IMG/VR virus record: IMGVR_UViG_3300008107_000341
Location: 1-64,000 of that record
DNA length: 64,000 nt
Direction: 5' to 3' (one strand)
DNA from: a virus
Under the pieces are notes generated by a model, which was given only the letters and a program-made list of their open reading frames with translations, did not search any database and was not told where the DNA came from. This document shows positions 19,970 to 63,300 of this stretch, piece after piece. The position numbers were made by a program, and so were the translations under genes. Each line of letters begins with the position of its first letter. The stretch's first letter is position 1.

Positions 19970-19970
19970 T

Positions 19971-21200: not shown

Positions 21201-21259
21201 GATAAAAAAGTTATTTAAAATGTGATGGCACGGTAAAGAGTGTTAGAGATTTTTATGCT

Positions 21260-21979
21260 TTGGCTCAAATTCTTGGTGTTGGTGACGATTGTAGATTTAA
21301 AAAAGATGGAACTCAATTAAGAAATGCTGATCCCACGACAGGAGATTTGGGTCAATTTCAACTTCCAGATTTAGGATCTAAAGTTATTCTCCCAAACAGA
21401 TCAACAGGAACATACGTTAATGATAGAGTAGAAACGGATGGTGGAACAACATCCACAAATATTGTTAATAGAGTGGGACCTCAAATTGAGGTCGCTAGTA
21501 ATGTGGGAAATCGTATAGAAGTAAATTATTCTGGAAATCTACAAGTAACTGCTGCAAGTGGAATTAATTTTAGTGGAAATGCAAAATACAATATGGTAAG
21601 CACTTTATCCACTACAACATTAGGAATTGAAAATTTCCAAGGTCATGCTCACAATTCATCGCAAAGTTATTTAAATTTTTCTGCTACCCATAGAGTTGGA
21701 TCAACAGGTGGTAAAGATGGTGGTAACTTAAGTGGAAATAGTGGATCTGGTAATGTGTTTGGAGAAACTCAGACAAATACTTCATCTCCATCAACACATA
21801 GTCATGGTATAATACGACCAACAACATATAATCCTAATCCATTTACTTATTCTTATTCTCAATTTAACGCTCCACTAGATAATGTAGTTTCATATGTTGA
21901 TATTGATATTCAAAATCAAGATAAATTAGATCAGGTTGTAACTCCTTTTATTCTAATTGAATATTTAATTAAGTTCTAA
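21260..21979 (+). CDS. Collar-domain fibre protein, apparently 5'-truncated
   Basis: The first usable start is TTG at 21260, but the same frame is open from 21206 and encodes YLKCDGTVKSVRDFYALAQIL, the collar motif of its two paralogues (WVFCNGQT...YPLL and YLLCDGSS...YPVL). There is no ATG/GTG/TTG before 21260 and a TAA closes the frame at 21203. The first 15-25 residues of the collar domain therefore seem lost. The rest has fibre-tip His motifs (GHAHNSS, THSHG). It could be a decayed gene, or it could start at a non-standard codon. Confidence 0.55.
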   Translation: MAQILGVGDDCRFKKDGTQLRNADPTTGDLGQFQLPDLGSKVILPNRSTGTYVNDRVETDGGTTSTNIVNRVGPQIEVASNVGNRIEVNYSGNLQVTAASGINFSGNAKYNMVSTLSTTTLGIENFQGHAHNSSQSYLNFSATHRVGSTGGKDGGNLSGNSGSGNVFGETQTNTSSPSTHSHGIIRPTTYNPNPFTYSYSQFNAPLDNVVSYVDIDIQNQDKLDQVVTPFILIEYLIKF

Positions 21980-23688: not shown

Positions 23689-23689
23689 A

Positions 23690-25099
23690 ATGCCAATATA
23701 TTCAACTAGTAGAGATGTAGGGTGGAATGCATGTAGTAACTCTAATTGGAGTTCATTCATGAATAGTTATGCATCAACTCCTTATAATCCAAGTCAAACT
23801 ACTGGGTTGAGGGGAGTTGTAATAACTGGAGGTTGGAATATTAATGCTCCTTATTCTGGCAACTATACATTGACAGTTGCTACAGATGATTATGGAACTA
23901 TAAATTATAGTGGAACTACATTTAGTTCTGGTGGATTCACTACAAGTGGAAATAGTTCTACTAAGTATTTTTCTCAAGGGCAAAATATTGCGTGGTCTTG
24001 GAGTGTGCAGAATAGCACTAGTTCTGATAGTTTTATATTTAATCCTGTTGCTATCGCTTTTACTTTAGATGGTCCTTCTAGACCAAATGCTCCATCTGTA
24101 AGTATTTCTGTAAACCCTTCTTCTATTATTAATAATGGATCATCTTCAGCAACATTATCTTGGTCTGCTTCTGGAAACGTAAGTAGTGTTAGTGTTACTG
24201 ATGTAAGTAGCCCTGGAACATCAGGAAGCAGAACTGTTCAGCCAACCTCTACTAGAACATATACTATCACTGCAAGCGGTGAAGGTGGAACAAGTAATGC
24301 AAGTACAACTCTTACTGTATATCAACCACCAAATCTTACGTTATCTTTAGACAGATCTTCTATTGCCGCAGGAGAATCTACTACACTTAGATGGTCAACT
24401 ACTGGAGACGCAAGCACAATTACATGGACTTCTGGTGGTATTACTAATGGCAACTTGAATAGTTTTACTACAGTTTCACCAACACAATCACAAACTTATT
24501 CTGCAACTGTTTCTGGATTAGGTGGTAGTGATAGTGATAGTATTAGATTAACAGTATATCAAAGACCAACAGTTTCATTGACTGTTCCAACTACATTAAA
24601 TTATGGTCAACAGGGTATTATAAGTTATGAGAGTTGTTATAGCAATACATCATTAACAATTACTCCATCTTACAGTTACTCTAATTCTTCTGGATCATCA
24701 ACTGTAACTGGTGATGCTATTGCTCTACCCACACCAAATTCTGCTGAAGAAGGTGTTGGAATAAATTGTGTTAGTGGAACGTTAAATACTACTATACCTT
24801 ACACTAGTTCTGGTCCTAGAACAGTTACTTACTCTTTAGCTGCAGTAGGTTCTGGCGGCGATCGAACAATTACTAATAGTGTAACAATTAATATCGATGA
24901 AACTCCAGAAAATATTAATGTTCCTGAAACAGATGAGTTATATAAACAACAAGAACCAATTTATACACCAAACTACACAATAACATCAAATTATTTAGAA
25001 ATTGCTGATATTGATATCCCCGTGGAGATAAAATCTAATTTTCCGATTAAAGTGGATAGAAATAGACAAGACAACTGGCAAGATTTAAGACAAATATAA
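23690..25099 (+). CDS. Ig-like fibre adhesin, paralogue 2
   Basis: 469 aa. The N-terminus differs from its neighbours: no Gly-rich region but a PA14-like or jelly-roll-like stretch (NYTLTVATDDYGTINYSG). Two Ig-like modules follow (SATLSWSASGNVSS; ESTTLRWSTTGDAST), then the shared C-terminal domain (DETPENINVPETDE ... NWQDLRQI). It shares exact DNA repeats with paralogue 3. Confidence 0.65.
   Translation: MPIYSTSRDVGWNACSNSNWSSFMNSYASTPYNPSQTTGLRGVVITGGWNINAPYSGNYTLTVATDDYGTINYSGTTFSSGGFTTSGNSSTKYFSQGQNIAWSWSVQNSTSSDSFIFNPVAIAFTLDGPSRPNAPSVSISVNPSSIINNGSSSATLSWSASGNVSSVSVTDVSSPGTSGSRTVQPTSTRTYTITASGEGGTSNASTTLTVYQPPNLTLSLDRSSIAAGESTTLRWSTTGDASTITWTSGGITNGNLNSFTTVSPTQSQTYSATVSGLGGSDSDSIRLTVYQRPTVSLTVPTTLNYGQQGIISYESCYSNTSLTITPSYSYSNSSGSSTVTGDAIALPTPNSAEEGVGINCVSGTLNTTIPYTSSGPRTVTYSLAAVGSGGDRTITNSVTINIDETPENINVPETDELYKQQEPIYTPNYTITSNYLEIADIDIPVEIKSNFPIKVDRNRQDNWQDLRQI
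24365..24463 (+). repeat. 99-bp exact direct repeat, copy 1
   Basis: Identical over 99 bases to 26097-26195 in the next paralogue. A second exact block, 24521-24588, matches 26253-26320 (68 bases). Both encode the Ig-like module around STTLRWSTTGDASTITW. Flanking DNA has diverged, which points to recent gene conversion or domain shuffling. Confidence 0.9.
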
Positions 25100-25100
25100 G

Positions 25101-26825
25101 ATGGCAACATACACAACAAATCAAACCGTAACAATACCAGCAAACGCAGCAAATGTTAGAGTTCAAGTTGCTGGAGCTCGCGGTGGTAATGGTGGAAATG
25201 ACGGAAATCCTGGAGGAACTGGTGGTAATGGTAGAAGAGGAACTTTTTATCTATCCGATTTTACTGCTAGAACATTAACATTAAATATTGGTCAATCTGG
25301 TGGTAACGGATTTGGGTGTGTTTCTAATAGTGGATCTGGTGGTGGAGGATCTGGAGTTGCTAGTGGTGGTAATGGTGGTCTTACTGGTCCTCAAGGATGC
25401 TCTGGTGGTGGTGGCGGCGGCGGCGGTGCTACTGGAGTATATGATTCTGTTGCTAGTGGTTGGATAATTGTCGCGGCTGGGGGTGGCGGAGCGGGTGGAG
25501 CTAGTTATCCTGATAGTTTTTTACGTGGTGGTGATGGTGGTTTTGGATTGGGTTTCCTTACTGGTGATGTAAATAGCATATCTAGAGGTGGTAATGGATC
25601 ATCGCAAGGATTTGATGGGGGAGGTGGAGGTGGTGGTGGTGGTGGATGCCCAGGAGGCGGCGGTGGTAGAGAAGGAGCTGATGATAGAGCAGGTAGATAT
25701 CCATCTGGAGGTGGTAGTGGAGGTGCCAGTTCATATAATTCTAGTTATGCTACTTTGAGTGGATCTGGCGATACTCATAATGGAAGTGGTTATGTAGATA
25801 TTACTTACGATTTAATTAGCCCTAGTGCCACTAGTTTTACTGCTACTCCTTCTTCAATTATACGAGGTCAATCTACTAGATTGGAGTGGACTACAACTAA
25901 TACAGTTAGTGCATCAATTAATAATGGCGTTGGTAATGTAACGGTTCCTAATAGTTTTGTTGATGTGTATCCCACTCAAACTACAACATATGTTCTTAAT
26001 TTAGTTGGATATGGTAATGCAACTGGATCTGCTCAAGTTACGATTACTGTATATCAACCACCTATTTTAACTTTCACATTAGATAGAAATCCAATAGCCG
26101 CAGGAGAATCTACTACACTTAGATGGTCAACTACTGGAGACGCAAGCACAATTACATGGACTTCTGGTGGTATTACTAATGGCAACTTGAATAGTAATGC
26201 CATAGTTTCTCCTTCAGAAAGCACAACATATTCAGCAGTTGTTTCTGGATTGGGTGGTAGTGATAGTGATAGTATTAGATTAACAGTATATCAAAGACCA
26301 ACAGTTTCATTGACTGTTCCTGCAAGTATAAATTATGGTCAACAAGGAACAATATCTTATAGTAGTTCATATTCTAATACGAGTTTAATATTGCAACCTG
26401 TTTATACTTACGGAAGAGGAGTTGGAACAATTAACGGAACTGCAATAACTTTAACAAAACCAACTTCTGCTGAAAGTGGTGTTGGTATAACTACTGTTAA
26501 TGGAACAATAACAACAGAAATACCATATAATACTACTGGTCCTTTTTCTGTTTCTTATACTCTTACTGGTGTTGGTGGTGGTGGAGAAGCTTCCACTACT
26601 TCAGAAATACAAATTATAGTGGATGAAACACCCGAAAATATTAATCTACCAGAAACTGAAAATGTTTATAAATTGCAAGAACCAATTAATACACCAGATT
26701 ATACTGTAACATCAAATTATCTTGCAGTTGATGGTGTTGACATTCCAGTTGAAGTAAGATCAAATAGACCTATTAAGGTAGATAGAAATCAGCAACAGGA
26801 TTGGCAAGATATAAGACAACTATAA
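25101..26825 (+). CDS. Gly-rich/Ig-like fibre adhesin, paralogue 3
   Basis: 574 aa. N-terminal beta segment (TNQTVTIPANAANVRVQVAGARGGNG), Gly-rich region to about residue 240 with runs up to ten Gly, two Ig-like modules (one nearly identical at DNA level to paralogue 2), and the shared C-terminal domain (DETPENINLPETE ... DWQDIRQL). The stop codon lies inside the late promoter of the next gene. Confidence 0.65.
   Translation: MATYTTNQTVTIPANAANVRVQVAGARGGNGGNDGNPGGTGGNGRRGTFYLSDFTARTLTLNIGQSGGNGFGCVSNSGSGGGGSGVASGGNGGLTGPQGCSGGGGGGGGATGVYDSVASGWIIVAAGGGGAGGASYPDSFLRGGDGGFGLGFLTGDVNSISRGGNGSSQGFDGGGGGGGGGGCPGGGGGREGADDRAGRYPSGGGSGGASSYNSSYATLSGSGDTHNGSGYVDITYDLISPSATSFTATPSSIIRGQSTRLEWTTTNTVSASINNGVGNVTVPNSFVDVYPTQTTTYVLNLVGYGNATGSAQVTITVYQPPILTFTLDRNPIAAGESTTLRWSTTGDASTITWTSGGITNGNLNSNAIVSPSESTTYSAVVSGLGGSDSDSIRLTVYQRPTVSLTVPASINYGQQGTISYSSSYSNTSLILQPVYTYGRGVGTINGTAITLTKPTSAESGVGITTVNGTITTEIPYNTTGPFSVSYTLTGVGGGGEASTTSEIQIIVDETPENINLPETENVYKLQEPINTPDYTVTSNYLAVDGVDIPVEVRSNRPIKVDRNQQQDWQDIRQL
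26097..26195 (+). repeat. 99-bp exact direct repeat, copy 2
   Basis: Partner of 24365-24463, with the second block 26253-26320. The distance between copies is 1,732 bases for both blocks, so the pair lies in register as one conversion tract with a variable 57-base interior. Confidence 0.9.
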
Positions 26826-26828
26826 ATA
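26821..26828 (+). promoter_or_regulatory. Late promoter overlapping stop codon of paralogue 3
   Basis: Exact TATAAATA; its TAA is the stop of the previous gene. The next ATG is at 26860 behind GAACGAGG. Confidence 0.75.
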
Positions 26829-26859
26829 ACATGGGAACTCATAACTAGACTGAACGAGG

Positions 26860-29784
26860 ATGCCATATCAATATTCTACAACACCGCTATACGTTGCTGA
26901 GGGTGATATTCTTCAGTTTAGATATCAAGCACCTCCTTTTTGGGATTATACCGAAACAATTACTATTCAGATTGGTGGATTAACAACATACTGGTATGTT
27001 ACTACAGTTCCAGAAGATTTTAGACCAGATCCTTTTCCTTTAAATGAAGTTAATGATGCTTTGTTGGATACATATTATTATTTTGATCCAGTAGTATTCC
27101 AAGCAACAACTGGCAATTCAAATACTGTAACTGGATTAACTCCAACAACACAAGCTTCTGTTAGTTTGACTTCTAATTTTATCGGAACCGTTACTGATTA
27201 TTCTTTGAGAATAAATGATGGAGCATGGTTTATTCCAGGATCTTCGACAACTGTTCAAAATGGAGATAAAATTGCTTTACGATTAAAATCTGGTGCTGGG
27301 AACCAAGAACTTAGAGAATTAGTTCTTGGTATTGGAACTGGGTATGAAACGTGGAGAGTAACTACTATAGCTATACCAAGAAATGAACCTATTCCATTTC
27401 CAAATTTTACAGATCTTACTGCTCAGTCATTAAACAAAGTAATTTATAGTAATGTTCTTCGTATTCAGGGATTGTTGAGACCAGCTGCTGTTCAAGTAGA
27501 TAACGGCGCTTCATTTGCAATATCTAGCACAAATACAACAACTACAAATGCAGATGGATTTGATGTATTAGATGGAGTAACGTTTGGAACTACAGGAACA
27601 ATTTCAAACGGTCAATATTTGCAACTTAGAATGACCAGCCCAAGCACAGAGTTTACTTCTAAAACTACTGTTTTGGGGATTGGTGATATCACTAGTGGTT
27701 CTGATTGGGTTATCACAACAGGTCAAAGCTTATCAACTACTCCAACTAGTTTTACATTTCCTGATATTAGTGGAGCAATTGAAAATTTCCTTCAACCATC
27801 TGCTGCTAGACCTGTTGGGGGAATAACTGGATTGGGAACTGGAATTAGTGTTCCTGTGGAATTAGTTTCAACTACTGCTTCTGAGGTTAAAGTTAAAATT
27901 AATAATTCTTCGATTGGTGTATTTCCTGCTACCGTTTCAAACGGAGACACAATAACTTTATATGCTAGATCTTCTTCTACTTTTGGGGCAAGTGTTGAGG
28001 TTAATGTGAAAGTTGGTGGAACTACGATTCCTACATGGAGAGTTCAAACAAATACAGGACCAGACACAACAGCAGATTTTACTCCACCAACAAATAAAAC
28101 AAACCAAGTTCCAGGAACTTATGTATCTAGTTCGGTAGTTAGCATTACTGGAATTAATAGGTCAATAACAATTAGTGCTACAAATAATGCATTAATTTCA
28201 ATCGATTATGATACTGCAGTTGCTGGACCCAGAACATTTGATCCTACTGTAAATACTTCATTTTATTTGGTGTTACAATCTTCTTCTTCATTAAATACTA
28301 CTGTTTCTACGAGTGTGACAGTAGGAACAGGAACTACAAATAATCCATTTACGTGGTCAGTTGGAACTTATGCAGTTGCACCTCCAGCACCTAGTTACGT
28401 TGGATCTTGGTATAGCAAAAAGAATGAGAAAGTAATTAGAAATGGATCAGGAACAATCACTTCTATCCAGAAAACAAAATATGATGGATATTCAGTGGGA
28501 ACTATTTTACCAATCTTGAAAGAAAGCACAGCTGCTGGTTATGGAACTTTAACCGCTGGAAGTCTTACTGCTAGATTCCCAGGATATTTACTTTGTGATG
28601 GATCTTCGTATAATGTAGCAGATTATCCAGTATTGTGGGAAGTAATTGGTAATACATATGGTGGAACTGGATCATATAATACTACAACAAAAGCATATAG
28701 TGGAACATTCAATGTTCCTGATTATAGAAATGTTAGAATGTGTGGAACTGGATTGATAGATGGTAACAAAGGATCTTCGGCATTCTTGCCAGTTGATGGT
28801 GGTAGTGTCTTTAGTGTTGGATCAACGGGGGGATTTTGGTTTGTTGATAGTGTTGGTGTTGCTGGTCCTCTTCCATACGAACAAGTCGAAGCATCTTCAA
28901 ACACTGCTACTACAGGAACTACCAGCCCATTCTTTACTTTGGGAACAGTAAAAACTACTGGTGCTAACTTAGTTACAGCAGAAGTAAGTTTTACTACAAT
29001 AGGAACTATTACTGCTCAGGTCGGACCAGTTTCTAGTGTCACTACTTCTGCTCCTTCGCATAGTCATACATATCTCAGTGCTGTGGTTGATGGTGATAGA
29101 GGAGATCCACTAATTCCTTGGGGAGCTAGAGCATTATTTGGAACTACTGCTGGTCCCATTGATACTGGAAATGATTACGCGGGAGAATTTCCAGATGAAT
29201 CTGAAGCAACCAATGCTCCTGGTGTTTGGCGACAGTTCCTCACTGGAAGATTTCCAAATTTGGCAGCTGAATTGACTGCTGCTGGAACTTCTATTGGTGA
29301 ATTGACAGGTCAGTTGACACGAGAAGGTGACACAAGAATTCAATACGAAAATCTATGGCCCAGTAATCTCACTGGATTAGATACAAGCAAATTAATTACT
29401 CTGAATACTACTGGAAATCGTGAAGTTGCTGGTGTTATTGATACAAATGCGACGACTTTTAGAATAGATGATTTTGTTTCTACATCTGGTTCGACGGAAA
29501 CACACTCTCATTATATTACAACATCCATAGTTACCAATCCATTAACTGATTATTCTTATGGAAATTCTTCTGGTTCTGGAACCAAGAATGGTTTGGGTGA
29601 TGCTGCAAATACTTTAAGTATTTCTTTCAATGCATCTGAAACAGGAATAGGCGTTAATGAAGGAACTTTTACAATGAATTCTACCATAAAAAATCCAGTT
29701 CCAGAAGTTGCTTTATCTCCAAATAGAACAGTTCCTATTTTAGCACCATTCCACAAAGTTAGATATATAATTAAAGCATACTGA
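26860..29784 (+). CDS. Large tail-fibre protein with collar domain
   Basis: 974 aa. Residues 1-500 are beta-rich repeats (IGTGYETWRVTT, VKVGGTTIPTWRVQ). Residues about 540-640 hold the collar domain (GTILPILKE ... GYLLCDGSSYNVADYPVLWEVIGNTYG ... FNVPDYRNVRM). The tip has SHSHTY and ETHSHY His pairs and ends VRYIIKAY, like the fibre at 19971. It has its own late promoter and ribosome-binding site (CGAGGATG), unlike the three genes before it. Probably a distal fibre or adhesin. Confidence 0.75.
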   Translation: MPYQYSTTPLYVAEGDILQFRYQAPPFWDYTETITIQIGGLTTYWYVTTVPEDFRPDPFPLNEVNDALLDTYYYFDPVVFQATTGNSNTVTGLTPTTQASVSLTSNFIGTVTDYSLRINDGAWFIPGSSTTVQNGDKIALRLKSGAGNQELRELVLGIGTGYETWRVTTIAIPRNEPIPFPNFTDLTAQSLNKVIYSNVLRIQGLLRPAAVQVDNGASFAISSTNTTTTNADGFDVLDGVTFGTTGTISNGQYLQLRMTSPSTEFTSKTTVLGIGDITSGSDWVITTGQSLSTTPTSFTFPDISGAIENFLQPSAARPVGGITGLGTGISVPVELVSTTASEVKVKINNSSIGVFPATVSNGDTITLYARSSSTFGASVEVNVKVGGTTIPTWRVQTNTGPDTTADFTPPTNKTNQVPGTYVSSSVVSITGINRSITISATNNALISIDYDTAVAGPRTFDPTVNTSFYLVLQSSSSLNTTVSTSVTVGTGTTNNPFTWSVGTYAVAPPAPSYVGSWYSKKNEKVIRNGSGTITSIQKTKYDGYSVGTILPILKESTAAGYGTLTAGSLTARFPGYLLCDGSSYNVADYPVLWEVIGNTYGGTGSYNTTTKAYSGTFNVPDYRNVRMCGTGLIDGNKGSSAFLPVDGGSVFSVGSTGGFWFVDSVGVAGPLPYEQVEASSNTATTGTTSPFFTLGTVKTTGANLVTAEVSFTTIGTITAQVGPVSSVTTSAPSHSHTYLSAVVDGDRGDPLIPWGARALFGTTAGPIDTGNDYAGEFPDESEATNAPGVWRQFLTGRFPNLAAELTAAGTSIGELTGQLTREGDTRIQYENLWPSNLTGLDTSKLITLNTTGNREVAGVIDTNATTFRIDDFVSTSGSTETHSHYITTSIVTNPLTDYSYGNSSGSGTKNGLGDAANTLSISFNASETGIGVNEGTFTMNSTIKNPVPEVALSPNRTVPILAPFHKVRYIIKAY

Positions 29785-29791
29785 TTAATTT

Positions 29792-30451
29792 ATGACAATA
29801 CAACCATATAGACCACTTGAGTTGATGCGAAATGATGCATTTACTAAATCTTCCTTTGATGATTTCATTGGAGTGTGGGAAGATTTTGTTCCGACATCAT
29901 TTTGTGAAGAACTTATTCAGTATTTCGAAGATACGAGATCTTTGAATAGTAGTATTGCTCCAGGTGATTTGGAATCTGACTATCAAGAATTTGTTAGAGG
30001 TGAAGATCAGTATCAAGGAGCATTACATAGGAAAGATGTTTCTATGTTATTGAACTACCATCAACAAGAATTGTCTTATAAAGTGCATCAATTTTTAACA
30101 TCTTGTGTATTGCATTACATTGTTGAGTATGATCAACTTAGGAAAGTTCCTATGTTTTCCACTGATATAAAATTTCAAAAAACTTCCCCTGGCGGCGGGT
30201 ATCATTTATGGCACTATGAAAATTCTGCAGCATCACATGCTCAGAGAGAATTAACATGGATGATTTATTTAAATGATATTCCAGATGGAGAAGGAGAGAC
30301 AGAATTTTTATATCAAAGAAGAAGAATTAAACCAAAGCAAGGAACTGTTGTTATATGGCCTGCTGGTATGACTCATGTTCATAAAGGAAATACAGTTCTA
30401 ACAACAGATAAATACATATTAACAGGATGGTATATTAAATCAGGAAAATAA
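29792..30451 (+). CDS. 2OG-Fe(II) oxygenase (1 of 5)
   Basis: 219 aa. Iron/2-oxoglutarate motif: GGGYHLWHYEN supplies H-x-E, then TWMIYLND, then KQGTVVIWPAGMTHVHKGN supplies the distal His; a basic residue near the C-terminus would bind 2OG. An acidic Glu in place of Asp is tolerated in the family. Substrate unknown; its place directly after the fibre genes suggests hydroxylation of fibre proteins or the host surface, but that is inference. Confidence 0.75.
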   Translation: MTIQPYRPLELMRNDAFTKSSFDDFIGVWEDFVPTSFCEELIQYFEDTRSLNSSIAPGDLESDYQEFVRGEDQYQGALHRKDVSMLLNYHQQELSYKVHQFLTSCVLHYIVEYDQLRKVPMFSTDIKFQKTSPGGGYHLWHYENSAASHAQRELTWMIYLNDIPDGEGETEFLYQRRRIKPKQGTVVIWPAGMTHVHKGNTVLTTDKYILTGWYIKSGK

Positions 30452-30454
30452 ATC

Positions 30455-31354
30455 ATGCCATATCAACCAATTTTTAGAACAGCTATAGTTGAGGCTGATT
30501 TCTTAAATAAAATTCTGATTACAACACCAACATTTGTTGAGGCGGGAGAAAAGATTCCTCTCAATAGAGTAAATATATCAGAAGAAATTTGTGAAAGATT
30601 TTTAAATGAACAAGTAGATTCATATTGGCACTCTGAAAAAGATAAATTAGAATATTTTGTTGCATATAATGATGGAACTTACTATTGTCAAAGAAAAAGA
30701 GTAAGGTATGATTTCGAAACAAAAACAAATTATTGGTCAACATATAATTTTAATGGAGCCTCTAAAGATCAAATAGAAGCATTAACAAATAAAATTCTTG
30801 ATCTTACCGCTGCTCTTAGGGAATATAAAATTGCTGAGTATGAGGGTGTTCTTGAAAAGATTGATCAAGAGTTTATTTTCTTTGATCAAAGATGGTTGAA
30901 GAAATTCAGAGAAAAACAAATGATGTTATCTGCTTCTGATTGGAGAGTTCTTCCTGATGTTGAGGATTCATATCCAGGCGAAAAGGATATGTGGATAAAG
31001 TGGCGTTCTACGATGAGATCGGAGACTGTAAAGAAACCTCAGGAATTTGAAACGAATTTAGAATTTTTAAAATATTTGTATGACCATAAGTGGCCAATAG
31101 ATCCAAAAAGATATAAAGAAAAATATCCAGATTCTGATGTTGAATACCTTTCTACTGAAGATCAATGGGTTAGTTATGATAGTGAAGCATCTACTGATTT
31201 TGTTGATTCTAGACTTGTCAATATTCTCAGTTCCAGTGGTGTTTATAGAGAAAAAATTGTTGATATTAAACGATCTGTATTCGAACTTATTAAAGATCTT
31301 AGACTGGAAGACTTCACAGAAATTAATTACGATCAATATAATATTATAGAATGA
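30455..31354 (+). CDS. Tail-fibre assembly-like protein
   Basis: 299 aa. The centre (LSASDWRVLPDVEDSYPGEKDMWIKWRSTMR, residues about 168-200, quoted here by its landmarks SDW, LPDV, W..WR..MR) resembles the C-terminal motif of phage tail-fibre assembly chaperones. The N-terminal 100 residues and the acidic C-terminus are not recognised. Location after the fibre genes agrees with a chaperone role. Confidence 0.5.
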   Translation: MPYQPIFRTAIVEADFLNKILITTPTFVEAGEKIPLNRVNISEEICERFLNEQVDSYWHSEKDKLEYFVAYNDGTYYCQRKRVRYDFETKTNYWSTYNFNGASKDQIEALTNKILDLTAALREYKIAEYEGVLEKIDQEFIFFDQRWLKKFREKQMMLSASDWRVLPDVEDSYPGEKDMWIKWRSTMRSETVKKPQEFETNLEFLKYLYDHKWPIDPKRYKEKYPDSDVEYLSTEDQWVSYDSEASTDFVDSRLVNILSSSGVYREKIVDIKRSVFELIKDLRLEDFTEINYDQYNIIE

Positions 31355-31830
31355 TACATGAAATTGATTTACTAAATGATGATCAACTTCAATATATTAA
31401 TGATTATTTTAACTATCTGACATTTAAAGATGGAAAAATTAGCAATCCTGGTATTTTGAAAGTATGTGAAACTGTTTTTGATGGTCCAGGTATTGCAGAA
31501 CTTAATGATTATTGTCAGCAAATTATTTTAAATACAAATTTACCATTTTTGGTATCTAGAATATCACAAATTTATTTTGTAAAATATAGCGTTGGTGGTC
31601 AATATAAAGATCACTATGATTCTAATCCTTGTGGTGGAGTTAGACCAGATTACAGTATGACTTGTTTTTTGAGTGATGATTATGATGGTGGTGAATTAGT
31701 TATAGAAAATGAAAAATCTGTAAAATTGAAAAGGGGCAAAGCAGTAGTATATCCAGGCAATTTACTTCATAGAGTAAATAAAGTAATGTCTGGAAGACGA
31801 GATGTTTTTATATGTTGGATTGAAATATGA
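31351..31830 (+). CDS. 2OG-Fe(II) oxygenase, PKHD type (2 of 5)
   Basis: 159 aa. GGQYKDHYDSN supplies H-x-D, YSMTCFLSDDYDGGELVI is the core strand, GKAVVYPGNLLHRVN supplies the second His, and GRRDVFICWIE the 2OG-binding Arg. Typical prolyl-4-hydroxylase-like (PKHD) layout. Overlaps both neighbours by 4 bases. Confidence 0.85.
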   Translation: MIHEIDLLNDDQLQYINDYFNYLTFKDGKISNPGILKVCETVFDGPGIAELNDYCQQIILNTNLPFLVSRISQIYFVKYSVGGQYKDHYDSNPCGGVRPDYSMTCFLSDDYDGGELVIENEKSVKLKRGKAVVYPGNLLHRVNKVMSGRRDVFICWIEI

Positions 31831-32345
31831 CTGAAATACTGTGTTATGATAATTTTTTTGAACAAAATGAATTCAAAAAAATACTTGAATATGTGGGCAG
31901 ACCTTGTTGGGGATTTGGTCATGGAACATTTGATGAATCACATCCTCAATATAAGAATAGCATTCCTTTTTGGGGTATGAATTTAGATGGAGAAGAGTAT
32001 TTTACTAATTTTCTTCTAAATAAGATACAGGATAAAACTCAAACGAGATTTAAACTGCTGACAGTGTATGCTAATGGGCATACTTTTGGAACAAAAGGAT
32101 CGTTTCACCAAGATTGGTATGACTATAGTGGGAGAACATTTCTTTTATATGCAAATACTGATTGGAATGTAGAATGGGGTGGAAACACGGTTTTTGATTT
32201 GGGAAACGAAGAATATCAATTCTCTGTTCCTAAACCAAATACTGCTCTTTTATTCCCTGGTGTTATACCACATTATGCAGATGCCACTACCAGATTGTAT
32301 ACTGGTTTAAGAATAACAATAGCTTGGAAGTTACTTTTGGAGTAA
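31827..32345 (+). CDS. 2OG-Fe(II) oxygenase (3 of 5)
   Basis: 172 aa. GSFHQDWYD supplies H-x-D, WNVEWGGNTVF the core, ALLFPGVIPHYAD the distal His, and TGLRITIAWK the Arg. Overlaps the previous oxygenase gene by 4 bases, so two oxygenases are made from one transcript. Confidence 0.8.
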   Translation: MTEILCYDNFFEQNEFKKILEYVGRPCWGFGHGTFDESHPQYKNSIPFWGMNLDGEEYFTNFLLNKIQDKTQTRFKLLTVYANGHTFGTKGSFHQDWYDYSGRTFLLYANTDWNVEWGGNTVFDLGNEEYQFSVPKPNTALLFPGVIPHYADATTRLYTGLRITIAWKLLLE

Positions 32346-32346
32346 A

Positions 32347-32688
32347 ATGAAACAGGATTACGAAGTATTATACTTTCAAAATTTCATAGAAGAATCTGTA
32401 AAATCTTTAGGTAAACCTGCAATTTACCTCAGATCTTATGGGTGGAACAACAGCACAGACATTCAGAAAATCAATGATTCAATGGATGTTTATAGATCCA
32501 TGCTTCCAGTTGACATGTTTAATGCACTTCATGATTCTGAATTTGTTTTTCTTTTACTAGAAGATATGGAGGAAGCAATTCAATTTTGTGAAGATACATT
32601 TCCAAAAGATCAAGCAAGTTGTGAGAAAGAATTTTATATTCATTGCTCGATAATCAACGAGCAGGGTCAAACGATATATTCAAATTAA
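32347..32688 (+). CDS. Unknown 113-aa protein
   Basis: Acidic, with Phe/Glu-rich helices (FVFLLLEDMEEAIQFCEDTF). No family recognised. 1 base after an oxygenase gene and 1 base before the next gene. Confidence 0.65.
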   Translation: MKQDYEVLYFQNFIEESVKSLGKPAIYLRSYGWNNSTDIQKINDSMDVYRSMLPVDMFNALHDSEFVFLLLEDMEEAIQFCEDTFPKDQASCEKEFYIHCSIINEQGQTIYSN

Positions 32689-45854: not shown

Positions 45855-46244
45855 ATGGCAACTCGCTCTCGCATTGGTATTCAACTCGCTGACGAATCTG
45901 TGCTCTCAGTGTATCACCATTGGGATGGTTACCCTGAGTGGCTGGGTCGCATTCTTCGCACTCATTACAACACCAAAGAGAAAGCTGCTGAACTCATTGA
46001 TGGTGGCGACATGAGTGTTGCTTGGAATGATGATCATCAACCAGAGTATTATTCTGCTCGTGGTGAAGATTGCCCTCCTCGCCTTGATGAAAACAAATAT
46101 GGTTATCTGTGTGGTAACAACTCTGGTGAAGAGTATGCTTACCTGTTTGTAAACAACGAGTGGGTGTGCTATAATCTTCACCTGTTTGAAGAAAACACTA
46201 TGCCTACTGTCGCTGAAATCCCTACTGGTGCCCTTGCTGTTTAA
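45855..46244 (+). CDS. Conserved-looking phage protein (MATRSRIGI)
   Basis: 129 aa. MATRSRIGIQLADESVLSVY, HHWDGYPEWLGRIL and the tail resemble a common phage/bacterial protein of unknown function that starts MATRSRI. 5 bases after the membrane peptide. Confidence 0.7.
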   Translation: MATRSRIGIQLADESVLSVYHHWDGYPEWLGRILRTHYNTKEKAAELIDGGDMSVAWNDDHQPEYYSARGEDCPPRLDENKYGYLCGNNSGEEYAYLFVNNEWVCYNLHLFEENTMPTVAEIPTGALAV

Positions 46245-46259
46245 TTTTTGAGGTAAATT

Positions 46260-46673
46260 ATGACTCGTTACAAGGATCCTAACACTTCTGTTGCTATTGT
46301 TTTTGGTTCTGGATTTTTAGTTGTGGTTACTCTACTGTTTTTCGGTGGCCCACAATATAATGTTTGGCAACAATCGCTAGCTGGTAAAGCAGAACTTCAG
46401 AAAGCAGAATATACTCGTCAGGTAGCAGTGTTGGAAGCACAAGCAAAGAAAGATAGTGCTCAACAACTTGCTGAAGCAGAAGTGATTCGTGCTCAAGGTG
46501 TTGCCAAAGCAAACCAAATCATCGGTGATAGTCTGAAAGATAATCGTGAATATCTTCAGTATCTGTATATCACTGGTATTGAAGATGGCGCTAAGAATGG
46601 TAACGTGACCATCTATGTTCCGACTGAAGGTGGAATGCCTGTTCCTACTCTGTCATACGATAAGCAACGCTAA
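46260..46673 (+). CDS. Band-7/prohibitin-like membrane protein
   Basis: 137 aa. N-terminal membrane helix (VAIVFGSGFLVVVTLLFFGG), then an Ala/Glu/Gln-rich coiled coil (LQKAEYTRQVAVLEAQAKKD, AEAEVIRAQGVAKANQIIG) and a short beta tail (VTIYVPTEGGMPVP). This matches the C-terminal half of SPFH/band-7 proteins; the SPFH domain itself is missing. Could be a lysis or anti-superinfection membrane scaffold (inference). Its last 15 bases recur at 48081. Confidence 0.65.
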   Translation: MTRYKDPNTSVAIVFGSGFLVVVTLLFFGGPQYNVWQQSLAGKAELQKAEYTRQVAVLEAQAKKDSAQQLAEAEVIRAQGVAKANQIIGDSLKDNREYLQYLYITGIEDGAKNGNVTIYVPTEGGMPVPTLSYDKQR

Positions 46674-52239: not shown

Positions 52240-52280
52240 TTTTCCACAGGGTTGTGGAAAAAGTATAGAGTTTTTCCACA
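52240..52280 (+). repeat. Cluster of three TTTTCCACA boxes (DnaA-box form)
   Basis: Exact boxes at 52240-52248 (+), 52253-52261 (-) and 52272-52280 (+). The first two form a 9-bp hairpin with a 4-base loop. TTTTCCACA is the DnaA-box consensus described for Synechococcus. From 52281 to 52436 I see no gene; there is only a hairpin GTAGA/TCTAC near 52326-52340. Confidence 0.85.
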
Positions 52281-52436
52281 GATTTAAATGTGTTAAAAAA
52301 TAGTATTGGGTTTTCTATGTGCTTCGTAGAATGTGTCTACAAATAGTCTGATGATACTGTGAAAGGTCTCAGAATCTTCAGAGTTGTTGTAGTCTTAGCA
52401 CGCGAGCTAACGAGTTGTCAAGCGTTTGTCACAAAA

Positions 52437-52571
52437 CTCAAAAATCTCAAAAAACTCAAAAATCTCAAAAACGACAAAACTGAGATTTCTGAGAATTCTG
52501 TATTTCCAAGGTTTTTTGAGTTTTTTCGAATTTTAAAAAACTTAATTTTTTAGTTTTTTGAGATTTTTGAG
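52437..52571 (+). repeat. CTCAAAAA iterons and perfect 19-bp inverted repeat
   Basis: Four 9-bp units CTCAAAAAN run without a gap from 52437 to 52472. The 19 bases 52437-52455 are the exact reverse complement of 52553-52571; more TTTTTGAG copies lie at 52513-52520 and to 52580. The region to 52620 is very AT-rich (poly-A/T runs, TTATAATTATAA). No credible gene. This could melt easily or fold into a long cruciform. Confidence 0.9.
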
Positions 52572-52641
52572 ACTTTTGAGAATTTTAAAGTCTTATAATT
52601 ATAACTTATCATTATAATAAGGGTTACTAATCAATAAAGGG

Positions 52642-52670
52642 TTGACAAACCATCGAAAATACAGTATTAT
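52642..52670 (+). promoter_or_regulatory. Cassette-type promoter
   Basis: TTGACA 52642-52647, 17-base spacer, TATTAT 52665-52670, then tactaagtaatcaatcaaag as in the other leaders. Confidence 0.8.
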
Positions 52671-52697
52671 TACTAAGTAATCAATCAAAGACATCGA

Positions 52698-52940
52698 ATG
52701 ACTGTCAAAAACTACACTGATCTTCCTAGTTCTGCTATCAAAAACATCACTATTGATACTGTAAAGAACACTGTATCAGTAGAGTATACTACTGGTAACA
52801 AACAGTATACTTACAGCACCGAAGATGCTGAAGGTTTTGATCAGCAACTGCTGTCAGAATTCGACTCTGATGATATCTCAGTGGGTCGATTCATGAATCA
52901 GAGCGTCACAAATGGCACTCTGAATCTGCTTGTTGACTGA
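52698..52940 (+). CDS. KTSC-like domain protein (AT-rich copy)
   Basis: 80 aa. SAIKNITIDTVKNTVSVEYT, NKQYTYSTEDAEG, then SVGRFMNQSV: the S-x-I...Y/F-x-Y...S.G..x-N pattern of KTSC domains (a domain also seen at lysyl-tRNA synthetase C-termini). A diverged GC-rich relative is at 54918. Function in phages unknown. Confidence 0.65.
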   Translation: MTVKNYTDLPSSAIKNITIDTVKNTVSVEYTTGNKQYTYSTEDAEGFDQQLLSEFDSDDISVGRFMNQSVTNGTLNLLVD

Positions 52941-53045
52941 CCCTACCACAGATAAATACGTTTGTCAAGGGGTAAAGACACCAATTTGGTTGTCAATATC
53001 CCTTCCAGACGATTCTAGACACCTCTCAGAGAACATTTCAAACCG

Positions 53046-53210
53046 ATGGCTAAATCCAAAGCAGGAAACTACAAGGATAATTTCTATAACGAATTCGATG
53101 AATTCGAAGAGCATGAAGTAGAACAAAAGTATGGTGTGAAAGTGAAGAATATTGGTCGCACTCCAAAGAAACAGAAAAAGCTTAAATTTGATGGTGATTT
53201 TGAATGGTAA
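53046..53210 (+). CDS. Small charged protein, unknown
   Basis: 54 aa. Acidic middle (NEFDEFEEHEVEQKYG) and basic end (IGRTPKKQKKLKFDG). Lies between the two box clusters. A GATAAATA at 52951 and a weak TTGTCA at 52990 are the only promoter-like signals upstream. Confidence 0.6.
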   Translation: MAKSKAGNYKDNFYNEFDEFEEHEVEQKYGVKVKNIGRTPKKQKKLKFDGDFEW

Positions 53211-53223
53211 TCTAATAAAATAG

Positions 53224-53287
53224 TTTTCCACAGATATACTAAAACCTGTGGAAAACTTTCAATAGTTTTCCACAACCCTGTGGAAAA
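53224..53287 (+). repeat. Cluster of four TTTTCCACA boxes (DnaA-box form)
   Basis: Exact boxes at 53224-53232 (+), 53247-53255 (-), 53266-53274 (+) and 53279-53287 (-), arranged as two inverted pairs that extend to 11-12 bp stems (AGTTTTCCACAG/CTGTGGAAAACT). No T-run follows, so simple termination is less likely. Confidence 0.85.
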
Positions 53288-53297
53288 CTCTCATAAG

Positions 53298-53340
53298 CCC
53301 CCCTAATCAGACCCATAAGCAAAGGTGATGGTTAGGGGGG
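53298..53340 (+). repeat. 9-bp C/G-rich inverted repeat at a promoter
   Basis: CCCCCCTAA (53298-53306) and TTAGGGGGG (53332-53340), 25-base loop, ending directly at the -35 of the next promoter. May be an operator or a terminator of the upstream unit. Confidence 0.65.
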
Positions 53341-53977: not shown

Positions 53978-54106
53978 ATGTGGGATGAGATCCAAGACAT
54001 GCCTGGTGAGATCTTCGATATCGAAGATTGGGGGCACCCCCTAGCAGAGTGCTGGCACGATATGGAGCTGAATGTGCCAGATGAAGAGGTGGCACAGGAG
54101 GGGTGA
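53978..54106 (+). CDS. Acidic 42-aa peptide
   Basis: MWDEIQDMPGEIFDIEDWGH then PDEEVAQEG: very acidic, Trp-containing. GC-rich codons. Monocistronic cassette. Confidence 0.5.
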   Translation: MWDEIQDMPGEIFDIEDWGHPLAECWHDMELNVPDEEVAQEG

Positions 54107-54158
54107 CCCTCCCCCCTCTCCTGCCTCTATACTGATCAAGTCAACCACACACGAGACC

Positions 54159-54326
54159 ATGACCCGCTTCGAAGTTTACGTGCCCTCTGCCCCTTACGAG
54201 TCCGAGAGCACCTGGGATCTCGATCGTGCCTGGGATCTGTGCCTCTCGCTGAGCGAGGAGTTCGGATACGCTCAGGTTCGCCAGGATGGTATCATCCTGG
54301 GAGACTACACCAACGGGGGTGTGTGA
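54159..54326 (+). CDS. Unknown 55-aa protein
   Basis: MTRFEVYVPSAPYESESTWD then LSLSEEFGYAQVRQDG. ATG 54159 follows TATACT (54128-54133) and a leader that is 24-base identical to the next cassette's (54124-54147 and 54373-54396). Confidence 0.6.
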   Translation: MTRFEVYVPSAPYESESTWDLDRAWDLCLSLSEEFGYAQVRQDGIILGDYTNGGV

Positions 54327-54406
54327 CACTCTAGAAACTGGCACAAGGGGTCACCACAGACCCCACCCTGACCCTCTATACTGATCAAGTCAACCAAACA
54401 AAGCAA

Positions 54407-54835
54407 ATGACCGTGACTCTGACCTCCAACTATCGTGACATGCTCGCTGCTGCCACTGTTGAGAAGATCGATGAATTGCTCGATGAGAACTATGCTCTCG
54501 ATGACATGCTCGAATTCATCGATGAGCGTAATGAGAACGATTTTGTAGCATACTATGAAGAGTATTGCCGTTGTGGTGAAGCAATCGGTTACGATGCTGT
54601 AGATGCTCTCATCGATGAGATGGGGTGCGTTTCTGACATCGAAGGGTGTGATGATCGCTTCCGTGGTTGGTATGAATCGACCGCTGATTTCGCTGAAGAG
54701 TTTTATACTGATACCTACGATGTTCCCTCTGCATTGGTGATCGATTGGGAGGCAACTTACGATAGCACCCTCCGCTACGATTACACTGCCTGTGAGAAAG
54801 GTTATCGTCAGGTGGCGATCTTCTCTGATTACTGA
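54407..54835 (+). CDS. ArdA-like antirestriction protein
   Basis: 142 aa with a heavy excess of Asp/Glu. IDERNENDFVAYYEEYC, DDRFRGWYESTADFAEEFY, then the Ile-Asp-Trp-Glu-Ala stretch and a VAIFSDY end follow the middle and C-terminal domains of ArdA (E-x-Y-x-G-x-Y-x-S...FA-E..., ID-x-E-A, terminal VxxF). The N-terminal ArdA domain is absent (usual length about 165-180 aa). ArdA mimics bent DNA and blocks type I restriction enzymes. It has its own TATACT cassette promoter (54377-54382). Confidence 0.6.
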   Translation: MTVTLTSNYRDMLAAATVEKIDELLDENYALDDMLEFIDERNENDFVAYYEEYCRCGEAIGYDAVDALIDEMGCVSDIEGCDDRFRGWYESTADFAEEFYTDTYDVPSALVIDWEATYDSTLRYDYTACEKGYRQVAIFSDY

Positions 54836-54917
54836 GTGACAGTCTGAGAGGTGGCACACGCTGCCTCTCAGCACCCCATCCTAGCCCCTATACTGATCTC
54901 AGTTCAAACGACACACG

Positions 54918-55118
54918 ATGTTCAAGGCATTCACCCTCGGATCTACCGCCATCAGCAAGATGACCGCCGATCCTATCACGGGCACCGTTCGCGTTCGCTT
55001 TCGTGGGGGCACTAAGTTCTACCGCTTCGAGAACGTCTCCCGTCGCGCCATCGTGGCGATGCTGCTGCGCCCTCCCGTGAGCATGGGCCAGTGGGTAAAC
55101 CGTCACTGCCTCGCCTGA
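54918..55118 (+). CDS. KTSC-like domain protein (GC-rich copy)
   Basis: 66 aa. STAISKMTADPITGTVRVRF, TKFYRFENVS, then SMGQWVNRHCLA: the same layout as 52698-52940 but basic and in GC-rich codons. TATACT at 54889-54894; hairpin TGAGAGG/CCTCTCA (54845-54851, 54864-54870) upstream. Confidence 0.65.
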   Translation: MFKAFTLGSTAISKMTADPITGTVRVRFRGGTKFYRFENVSRRAIVAMLLRPPVSMGQWVNRHCLA

Positions 55119-55163
55119 TCAGGTCGCCTGACCCTGTAGACTAATCACATCAGCAAACAACCC

Positions 55164-55325
55164 ATGAGAATCGAAGTTCGTTACCAGACTCCCTACAATG
55201 CTTGTGAGTGGCGCTCGCAGTGGTTTAAGGATCTGGCAGAGGCAGAGCGTATGGTAGAATTCTATCGCTCCTGTGGGTCACCCTCTCACATCGCCCCTTC
55301 CTCCCTCGCTCAGTTCGATCGCTGA
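55164..55325 (+). CDS. Unknown 53-aa protein
   Basis: MRIEVRYQTPYNACEWRSQW then LAEAERMVEFYRS. Upstream TAGACT at 55137-55142 and leader aatcacatcagc. GC-rich. Confidence 0.55.
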   Translation: MRIEVRYQTPYNACEWRSQWFKDLAEAERMVEFYRSCGSPSHIAPSSLAQFDR

Positions 55326-55332
55326 TTCTACC

Positions 55333-55473
55333 ATGCCGAACCTCATCCGCCTTTCCCTGGTCGCCGCCATCTGCCTGATGTTCGCCAACACCCTAGGATC
55401 GGTGTTCGCCCTAGCCCAGACCCTAGACCGTGTGACAGCCGAGAAGGTGGCACAGATCGCCGCCATCGACTGA
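55333..55473 (+). CDS. Small exported or membrane peptide
   Basis: 46 aa. Hydrophobic start with Ala sites (MPNLIRLSLVAAICLMFANT, then LGSVFALAQ) like a signal peptide with cleavage after ALA, leaving about 18 residues. 7 bases after the previous stop. Confidence 0.55.
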   Translation: MPNLIRLSLVAAICLMFANTLGSVFALAQTLDRVTAEKVAQIAAID

Positions 55474-55512
55474 CCCCGACCCTGTAGACTGATCTCAGTT
55501 CAAACAAAGCAA

Positions 55513-55686
55513 ATGACCAACCCCAAGATCGACCTCGCCGCCATCATGGCAGACTACACCACCCGCTACAATGAGATGCAGGCACGGTCTGCCGCCAACC
55601 GCCAGGCATTCGCTGAGGGTCGCCCCTTCCCCTTCCCCGCCCCCGAGTGCCAGTCTGACACCTGGAACATCAGCGACCGCCACTGA
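55513..55686 (+). CDS. Unknown 57-aa protein
   Basis: MTNPKIDLAAIMADYTTRYN, helical, then Pro-rich RPFPFPAPE. Upstream TAGACT 55485-55490 and gatctcagttcaaac leader (identical to 54895-54909). Confidence 0.55.
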   Translation: MTNPKIDLAAIMADYTTRYNEMQARSAANRQAFAEGRPFPFPAPECQSDTWNISDRH

Positions 55687-55732
55687 GCGGCGCTGCCTGT
55701 AGAATTCTCTCAGTTCAACCGACAGACGACCG

Positions 55733-55927
55733 ATGATCCTCAGCATGGCATCCGACCTTCAGACCCGCCGCATCGTGTGGGCAGGTCGCAAGACAGAGAC
55801 CGCACAGCAGACCATGGGGCAAGATCTGCCCCTGACCGTAGAGAGTGAGTGGATCGCGGGCGCTTACTCTGACCGCTGGCATGATGAGGCGATCGCCGCC
55901 CTGCCCCTGTTCACCCACGCCGACTGA
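55733..55927 (+). CDS. Unknown 64-aa protein
   Basis: LQTRRIVWAGRKTETAQQTM then YSDRWHDEAIAALPLF. Upstream TAGAAT 55700-55705 and ctctcagttcaacc leader. Among the most GC-rich DNA in the window. Confidence 0.55.
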   Translation: MILSMASDLQTRRIVWAGRKTETAQQTMGQDLPLTVESEWIAGAYSDRWHDEAIAALPLFTHAD

Positions 55928-55930
55928 CCC

Positions 55931-56125
55931 ATGAAAAAAATCGAGCGCGAGCGCCTGATGATCATGACCCGTGAGGGATGGGCAGAGAAGCGACGCACGG
56001 GAGGGCACATCGTATGGCAGCACCCCCGCTATGGCACAACCACCACCAGCGCCACGCCCAGCGACATTAACTCACTGCGACAGATCGAGCGCCAGCTGCG
56101 ACGCATCGCCGCCGCTGCTGCCTGA
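55931..56125 (+). CDS. HicA-like (YcfA) small protein
   Basis: 64 aa. MTREGWAEKRRTGGHIVWQH then a Thr-rich strand and a C-terminal helix (SLRQIERQLRRIAA). The x-GW-x(5)-GGH-x(3)-HP core is the HicA dsRBD-like fold, where the His is catalytic for mRNA cleavage. No HicB partner lies next to it; the gene is 3 bases after 55733-55927, which does not look like HicB. May be a toxin-derived RNA-targeting protein. Confidence 0.65.
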   Translation: MKKIERERLMIMTREGWAEKRRTGGHIVWQHPRYGTTTTSATPSDINSLRQIERQLRRIAAAAA

Positions 56126-58132: not shown

Positions 58133-58528
58133 ATGCCGATCAGCAGGTCTTTTAAAGATATTAGTATAACGTTTGACAAGAATTTCGTGACCGATGATCT
58201 TGCGGTCACGAAAGATTTTAATGCTATCAAACAATCGGTTAAAAATTTGGTTACTACTGTTCCTGGAGAGCGATTTTTTAACCCAAATATCGGAAGCAGA
58301 ATCACAGATCTGTTATTTGAACCATTAGATTTTATTAATGCAAATTTAGTTAAGTCTGAAATTACTTATACCATCAATGCATTTGAACCAAGAGTAAAAT
58401 TAATTGATGTAACCGTTGATCAAAACATGGATGATAATGGTTATGATGTTCAAGTAGAATTTGAGGTTATTGGTTTACCAGAAAAAACTCAAGAATTAAC
58501 ATTTTTTCTAGAAAGAACTAGAGCATAG
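58133..58528 (+). CDS. gp25: Baseplate wedge protein gp25
   Basis: 131 aa, family length. VTTVPGERFFNPNIGSRITD then LLFEPLDFINANLVKSEI is the gp25/W-like (T6SS TssE-like) signature with the E-R-x-F-x-P-x-x-G-S core. It joins the wedge to the sheath in T4. Confidence 0.92.
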   Translation: MPISRSFKDISITFDKNFVTDDLAVTKDFNAIKQSVKNLVTTVPGERFFNPNIGSRITDLLFEPLDFINANLVKSEITYTINAFEPRVKLIDVTVDQNMDDNGYDVQVEFEVIGLPEKTQELTFFLERTRA

Positions 58529-60344: not shown

Positions 60345-63300
60345 ATGGCATCTAAGGTAAGAAATCTATCATCCCTGGTAGACAAGCAACTACCAGAATT
60401 TATTTCGTCAGAATATCCTAAATTTTCTGCGTTTTTGCAAAAATATTATGAGCACCTTGAATTAACGGGTGAGCCGATAGATTTAATCTCAAATCTATCG
60501 AAGTATCGTGATATCGATACTTATGAGAAAAATTTACTGAAAGAAAATACATCACTTACTCAAAATCTAAGTGATTCTGCTACTACGATCAACGTAGAAA
60601 GCACTGTCGGATTTCCATCCGAAAATGGATATGTATTAATTGGTGATGAAGCTATATTTTACAAGTCAAAAACCAATACTTCATTTCTAAATTGCTATAG
60701 AAATGTAACTCATACAACTAAACTAGGTGATTTATATACAAAATCTGATATTACTACAGTTGATTACTCTGATATTGGATCAGGTAAGCAACATCTTACT
60801 GGAGATCTAGTCTTAAATATCAGTAATCTGGTATTATATGCTTTAGTTAGAAATTTTGAGCAAGAGTATCTTGGAGCATTTCCAGAAAAATCTTTAAAGA
60901 ATGCCGTTGATAAGTCAGTTTTAATTAAGAACATTAAAAAGTTCTATGCAGCAAAAGGAACTGATCAATCTATTCGTTTTATATTTAACTCGATTGTTGC
61001 AAAAGAACCTAACGATATTCCAACAGTATACTACCCAAAAGATAGCACATACAAGTCGTCTAATGGTCAATGGATTGATAAGTTTGCGTTAAAGGTAAGA
61101 GTAATCTCTGGTGATATCAGTAAAATTATTGGCGAAAAAATTATTCAAGAAGAAAACCCATTTGACTTGAATGTAAGATCTGCTTTTTCATATGTAGACA
61201 ATATTATTGATATTGGTGATAATTTTCATGAAGTAATTTTGTCTAGAAATGATATTGTTGGAGAATTTGCTGTTTCCACAGAAACATACCTCACAAAAAA
61301 CTTATTATCAACGGATTCGACCAACAAGAGAATTAATGTTTATTCTACTTTAGGATGGAAACAGCAGTCTGGTCAACTTATAATTGGAAATGAATTAATT
61401 ACATACAAGCAAAAAAATGTTTCTCAATTTGTTATTGACTCTAGAGGTGTATTACCATCAACTTACACAGTAAATGAACCTGTATATAATTATTCTAATG
61501 TTTACTGTGATTATATTGACGGTTCTGGCACAAAACAAAGAGTTAAGCTATTAGTATTAGGAATATTATATTCATTAACTCCATCAGAGTCTTTACCTTA
61601 TTCCAAAGAAGATGATATTGTTCAAATATCAGATTCTGGGTTTGAAACTAGAGACACTATTATTTTTGATAAATTTTCAAATGATACAAGATGGATTATC
61701 AATGAAACTAACACTATTCCATCATCAGATCATGCAAATATTTCTTCTCAATTATCTGAGATTATTTCTGATGTAACTGCAGTATATGAAGATAATCAAT
61801 ATTATTATATTGCTACATCTGGATATCCTTCTCACAAAATTGGAAAGGCAAATTGGGGTGTTACATTTTTAGATCAGAAAAAATTAAAACTAATCAAGAA
61901 AGTTCCATCGGCAACCACAGAAATTTATCCAACACCTTCTAATGAAGTTGGAATTTTTGTCAATGGAACAACTGCTAGATCTTTCAAAGACACTGATGAA
62001 AATTTGATTGTTTTTGGAGAAATTCAAAAAATAAATTTAACTAATCCAGGAAGCGGATATAAAAAACCTCCATACGTTTTGGTTCAAGATGGAGCAGGAT
62101 CTTTAGTAGCATCTGCAGAAGCAATATTAAATGGGGAAGTTATCGATCGCATTGAAGTCGTAGAATCTGGTAGTGGATTTTTCCCACCAGTTCCAGTAAT
62201 TACAATTACTTCTGGAAGAGGAGCTGTAATTACACCTGTTGTTACTGGCGATAAAATAACTAGTTTGAAAATTATTAATCCAGGTGAATATTACTCTTCT
62301 CCACCTCAAGTGGTTATTAAAGATTCTACTGGAAAAGGTAGATTTGCTAGATTTGAAGCTGTTGTTAGTGATGATGGGCAAATAATAGATTTCAAAAAAT
62401 TAGACGAAGGAAAATTCTACACTCAGAGCACTACGACAGTAGAAATAATTCCATCTGGGAGTGGTGCCACTGCAATATCCAGTGTTAGATCTTGGAGAAG
62501 AAATTTATACAACAAACATTTCAATAATTTAGATAATGATAACGGATTTTACTTTTTAAATAATGATATATCTTTAGAGTATGGTTATAGCTACTTAGCA
62601 AATCCGAAATCATTAAGAATTGCTTTATCTGATAATTTAGATCAATCTGGTAATATAACAAACACATTATCACATTCTCCTATTTTAGGATATGCATTTG
62701 ATGGCAATCCAATATATGGTCCATATGCATATTCTGATCCATCTGATCCTACAACATCTATAACTAGGATGACTTCTAGTTATTCTTTAAATAATAGAAG
62801 ACCCAGCGGACCATCAATAGTAACATATCCTTTAGGTTCTTTTGTTGAGGATTATCAATATAATCACAGATCTGGTTCTCTAGATGAAAATAATGGAAGA
62901 TTTTGCGTCACCCCTGATTACCCAGAAGGAACATACGCTTATTTCTTGACAGTAGACTCAACAGGGCAACCAGCTTTCCCATATATTTTGGGAAATAATT
63001 TTTATTCTCTTCCAGTAGATTCAAATTATTCCAAAAAAATATCACAAGATGATATTCCTACTAATATTATAAGATTAAAAACTCAAAAAACTCCTAATGA
63101 TGGAAAAGGAGCACAATCTTATATTAATACAATTTCTAGTGGTTCGATTTCTTCTGCTTTAATAGAATATTCTCCCTCCACATTTTCAACAGGTAGTTTA
63201 ATTGAAGTTAATTCATCTGGAACTGATGGTAAAGATTTATTAGCACAAGTTAGTTCTGTAAACGGAAAAAATGTAACTTCTATCCAATCACAGCAAACAA

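Follow-up and report, generated by a model that had tools for sequence, protein, structure and literature searches.

Phages of the T4 type start replication without DnaA and are thought to be independent of this host initiator. The T4 origin oriF, or ori(uvsY), is located between gene 25 and uvsY and carries no cluster of DnaA boxes. T4-like cyanophages are among the most abundant marine viruses, and the one prediction found on their replication start is a single theta origin for Syn9 (PMC2984593). No report of DnaA boxes in T4-like cyanophages was found in the open-licence papers searched.

The DnaA consensus is TTWTNCACA (PMC4585315), and the DnaA box published for cyanobacteria is TTTTCCACA (PMC6323995). 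Domain IV of the Cyanothece DnaA binds two or three boxes, whereas binding to a single box is not clear (PMC4674748). In a cyanobacterial genome (MAG), we found six TTTTCCACA boxes within ~550 bp immediately upstream of dnaN; the comparison with host boxes made here rests on the published box, the Cyanothece binding data, and this MAG rather than on the oriC of marine Synechococcus. Among the E. coli loci, the DARS sites are described as being marked by a head-to-head orientation of box I and box II, in contrast to the halves of oriC and to datA (PMC5742627). The DARS1 core (MG1655) has box I on the plus strand, box II on the minus strand at +14, and box III, also on the minus strand, at +26, and the same spacing gives the best fit for DARS2. 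The halves of E. coli oriC are head-to-tail arrays, and the essential boxes of datA all have one direction (PMC5742627).

By DNA similarity, the locus described here comes from the genome of an S-PM2-like member of the T4-like cyanophages (Kyanoviridae). The fragment that contains it, hereafter the window, is the whole stretch of 64 kb that was analyzed and is part of a record of 92,395 bp. We read the locus as a module for host DnaA that may have a role in initiating phage replication, a reading that appears the best one for the sequence and to which we assign a probability of about one-half. In its head-to-head arrangement, it is closer to the E. coli DARS core than to oriC or datA; the chief competing reading is a DARS-like function, alone or combined with initiation.

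Two Clusters of Cyanobacterial-Type DnaA Boxes

Seven exact copies of TTTTCCACA form two clusters in the window, three within 41 bp (52240–52280) and four within 64 bp (53224–53287), and this recount reproduces the numbers of an earlier note on the same DNA. The whole window contains 9 copies vs. 1.29 ± 1.23 expected, a number reached in none of 100 dinucleotide shuffles, and the Poisson probability of at least seven boxes inside 1048 bp is ~4e-16. The isolated boxes at 34479 (minus strand) and 36772 (plus strand) are as numerous as chance predicts.

Most boxes are paired head-to-head, a feature absent from the earlier note. In cluster 1, box 1 (52240–52248, plus strand) directly follows the upstream ORF's stop codon and faces box 2 (52253–52261, minus strand; 13 bp start to start, 4-bp spacer), whereas the exact box 3 (52272–52280, plus strand) is extra. 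In cluster 2, the exact box 4 (53224–53232, plus strand) faces box 5 (53247–53255, minus strand; 23 bp start to start, 14-bp spacer), and the exact box 6 (53266–53274, plus strand) faces box 7 (53279–53287, minus strand) with the same 13-bp distance and 4-bp spacer as in the first pair. The form TTTTCCACA-N4-TGTGGAAAA is therefore present at 52240/52253 and 53266/53279, and its N14 counterpart at 53224/53247, the order of strands being +,-,+ in cluster 1 and +,-,+,- in cluster 2.

One-mismatch variants found near the clusters keep the 3′ end of the box: TTATCCACA is the most enriched of them, substitutions are tolerated at positions 1, 2, 5, and 6 as well as an A at position 3, and none of the variants is altered at positions 8 and 9. 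Judged by sequence, this tolerance is close to the degeneracy of the DnaA consensus cited above. In the window overall, one-mismatch TTATCCACA is not enriched (31 vs. 24.9). Both the box sequence and the tolerated variants agree with the earlier assignment of the boxes to the cyanobacterial type, and the locus is very probably a module that binds DnaA in one way or another. None of the eight cyanophage records tested encodes a DnaA domain IV.

Conservation at a Fixed Distance Range from gp25

The position of the locus in relatives is fixed by the baseplate gene gp25 (58142–58522, plus strand, in the window). Relatives that carry boxes have one box locus per genome, 2.5–8.6 kb upstream of gp25. 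The carriers include S-PM2, S-RIM32, S-WAM1, S-SZBM1, Syn9, S-SM2, P-SSM7, and several IMG/VR genomes, as well as ACG-2014g, S-RIM2, S-RIM12, S-M1, QB2, and S-CREM1, the last six being found via the box region and hence biased toward carrying boxes. For example, the boxes are located at 19231–19264 in S-PM2 (gp25 at 26866), 60807–61880 in S-RIM32 (gp25 at 66279), 52565–52597 in Syn9 (gp25 at 58309), and 45973–46631 in P-SSM7 (gp25 at 51596). The three-pair layout of the window recurs in two IMG/VR contigs (L016 and L029/L056).

A panel of loci assembled through gp25, not through the boxes, contains 46 boxes in 288 kb upstream of gp25 vs. 6 in 569 kb downstream, and four scrambled 9-mers show no enrichment upstream of gp25 in this panel. 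Clusters of at least two boxes are present in 8/13 panel loci with at least 7.5 kb of upstream sequence. Among eight cyanophages pre-chosen by accession, three have a cluster (Syn9, S-SM2, and P-SSM7) and five have none (P-SSM2, P-SSM4, S-RSM4, P-HM1, and S-SSM7); no box cluster was found in T4, P-SSP7, or HTVC008M. The same boxes at the same locus, a comparison proposed in the earlier note, are thus shared by many related cyanophages, though not by all. In S-PM2 (NC_006820, region 12691–32359), an annotated tRNA-Asn (19177–19249) overlaps the boxes; this annotation looks doubtful, since ARAGORN detects no tRNA in that stretch.

Sequence Context of the Clusters

The right edge of cluster 1 is followed by an AT-rich tract (TTAAATGTGTTAAAAAATAGTATT, 52281–52310) that is conserved in relatives. 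The 50 bp to the right of cluster 1 are 72% AT in the window, and the 50-bp flank on the right-hand side reaches or exceeds the 87th percentile for AT in 13/17 loci. Beyond the tract lies TCTTAGCACG...TGTCAA, which on the other strand reads TTGACA-N17/18-TAAGAC toward the boxes. This conserved leftward sigma70-like element (52383–52421, minus strand; TTGACA at 52421–52416, TAAGAC at 52397–52392) is aimed at cluster 1, with a spacing of 18 bp in the window and 17 bp in most relatives, and would by its sequence act as a promoter; no plausible gene is located downstream of it. With no more than one mismatch allowed, the core of the element is found 260 bp or less from 31/148 clusters, one of them out of register, compared with fewer than one expected by chance according to our own estimate from 66 matches in the whole set. 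Other isolates have, judged by eye, a promoter-like TTGACA-17-TANNNT with a different core in the same place. Promoter-like sites in general (score of at least 8.5) are enriched around the clusters in both directions, 58% toward and 53% away vs. 24% in random DNA, so promoter direction alone is no proof. In S-RSM4 (133200–148000), the AT-rich tract and the promoter element are present with no TTTTCCACA box; hence, the boxes are not strictly required.

The DNA between the clusters includes an AT-rich inverted repeat (52437–52580) with arms at 52437–52471 and 52546–52580 that are 89% complementary and a single-strand fold of z = -3.8; a similar hairpin is found in S-PM2 and S-RIM32. The four 9-bp repeats CTCAAAAAT/CTCAAAAAA/CTCAAAAAT/CTCAAAAAC at 52437–52472, previously described as iterons, are real, but the term is not the best one, as they make up the left arm of this inverted repeat. 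The very AT-rich stretch reported near the boxes proved to be the 100-bp segment with the highest AT content in the 64 kb (52521–52620, 85% AT) and is a candidate unwinding region. To the right of it, a rightward sigma70-like promoter sequence, TTGACA-17-TATTAT (52642–52670, plus strand, 11/12 match), precedes an ORF of 80 aa (phrog_4357; 52698–52940, plus strand), with an ORF of 54 aa farther on (53046–53210, plus strand), both having no assigned function. Cluster 2 is adjoined by a strong GC hairpin, CCCCCCTAATCA...TGGTTAGGGGGG (53298–53340), and then by a TTGACT promoter-like site. A G+C-rich island (54001–56000, 53–60% GC) in this phage of ~38% GC contains an anti-restriction gene and small ORFs.

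Helical Phasing of the Boxes

The spacing of the sites follows the turns of the DNA helix. Among the matches listed, inverted TTTTCCACA pairs in IMG/VR have spacers of 3–5 and 12–16 bp (119 in phase vs. 3 out), and the longer spacers among them are 25–27, ~36, and 46–47 bp. This phasing corresponds to P ~1e-28 before correction for relatedness, and such P values are guides only, because related sequences inflate the counts. Direct repeats of the box are 11–12, 21–22, 32–33, and 42–44 bp apart, and the best period of box spacing is ~10.75 bp. A scan of newly fetched contigs for longer spacers again gave peaks at 26 and 36 bp (25–27 and 36), on a broader background. The scrambled-pair control yielded 19 matches in all IMG/VR, unphased, and the same pair pattern in bacterial genomes at large was in phase in 83 cases vs. 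42 out of phase. The counts from two of the scans for box pairs are samples, comprising the matches listed; the first scan used head-to-head pairs as its seed and is therefore uninformative on the frequency of that orientation, which is better judged from the gp25 panel and the isolates. Helical phasing argues that a protein binds DNA here and that the pairs are not RNA hairpins.

Functional Interpretation

In the preferred reading, the two clusters would constitute a cis-acting module that binds host DnaA in vivo. DnaA monomers would occupy the boxes mainly as head-to-head pairs along one face of the helix, and their assembly may bend or melt the adjoining AT-rich tract, into which the conserved leftward element, as an early promoter, would also transcribe. 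The resulting RNA or opened bubble could then be offered to the T4-type replisome of the phage (gp43, gp41/gp59/gp61, and gp32). An origin-type role fits the locus, since it is single and fixed, contains AT-rich DNA, and has a promoter-like element that would send a gene-less transcript into this DNA. T4 oriF offers a partial parallel: both are loci of T4-type phages near gene 25 with a promoter, here a putative one, aimed into candidate unwinding DNA, although oriF is on the opposite side of gene 25 and at most 100 bp away from it.

The resemblance to a bacterial oriC, suggested in the earlier note, is supported in part but not in detail. The locus shares with the dnaN-linked TTTTCCACA clusters of cyanobacteria the box sequence, the clustering, and the AT-rich surroundings, including a candidate unwinding element next to host-type boxes; it differs in not being beside dnaN and in having fewer boxes. 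Its predominantly head-to-head order is unlike the head-to-tail arrays of the E. coli oriC halves. DnaA-trios (BUS) beside the boxes are not enriched (42/328 flanks vs. 36.6 ± 5.2 in shuffles; 1 vs. 3.7 for the stricter form). Cumulative GC skew, which had been proposed as a check, lends no support to an origin: the curves of S-RIM2, Syn9, S-PM2, and P-SSM7 do not reach a minimum there, the test being weak because coding in these phages is nearly one-way. Together with the several relatives that have no boxes and with the DnaA-independent start of T4-type replication, the missing trio and skew signals count against an origin role.

Sequence cannot settle whether the locus functions as an origin, as a decoy, or in a DARS-like manner, and the alternatives differ in how much of the locus they account for. 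There is hardly any probability that the inverted boxes work as RNA hairpins or terminators: the pairs can fold, and the minus strand of cluster 2 gives two terminator-like matches, but the phasing with spacers of up to ~47 bp and the phased direct repeats led us to reject this explanation, which the earlier note had named as one that would undo its proposal. Moreover, the T run is inside the stem rather than behind it, so no intrinsic terminator (a G+C stem followed by a U run) was recognized, and Rfam gave no credible match. There is a slim chance that the boxes are a decoy titrating host DnaA and thereby halting host replication. Their exact, high-affinity-type sequence would suit this purpose, and phage copy number would presumably multiply them; a decoy, however, needs neither so few boxes per genome nor a fixed position, nor does it require that spacing and non-coding neighbors be conserved. 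The fixed locus and these neighbors favor an acting site over a plain decoy. The locus has in common with E. coli datA a compact cluster of DnaA boxes, from which the mostly head-to-head phage clusters differ in orientation.

A role of DnaA as a transcription factor for divergent early promoters at the locus is distinctly unlikely, though less so. The enrichment of promoter-like sites in both directions is in line with such a role, but the boxes are located far past the leftward start site, the distance between boxes and promoter differs among genomes, and a single promoter has no need of a second cluster ~200–1000 bp off. A DARS-like site is possible, if on the whole unlikely: head-to-head boxes would cause host DnaA to release its ADP and return to the ATP-bound form, so that the initiator stays active, or becomes over-active, during infection whether or not the locus is an origin. 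Some phage sites share with the DARS1/DARS2 core a head-to-head pair I/II and a tandem box III, and the DARS spacing of 14/12 is matched exactly by S-RIM32 and an IMG/VR genome (G002). S-PM2 and others have 13/12, and ~15 loci have 23–24/12, one helical turn longer than DARS. However, the box order in both clusters of the window differs from that of DARS, and the phage sites belong to a lytic virus and adjoin an AT-rich tract and a promoter-like element, whose conservation a DARS function leaves unexplained. We know of no description of DARS in cyanobacteria.

If the preferred reading, a host-DnaA module that initiates phage replication, is true, these phages would recruit the host initiator, most likely to begin copying their own DNA, and phage replication would be tied to host replication control. 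In cyanobacteria, this control is sensitive to light and to the state of growth. With a conserved DnaA module confined to a single locus, there is also a precise, testable site. Beyond the cyanobacterial box, TTATCCACA-N-TGTGGATAA pairs in further IMG/VR loci (L522 onward) have the same in-phase spacers (90 vs. 25 among the matches listed). DnaA boxes paired head-to-head may therefore be widespread among phages that infect many different hosts. Tentatively, and with odds well against it, one may imagine a portable DARS-like module, joined in modular fashion to the conserved AT-rich/promoter core, that would capture the host initiator, restore its activity, and so fire a phage origin; because the TTATCCACA pairs are phased alike, phased head-to-head pairs would then be a general phage device.
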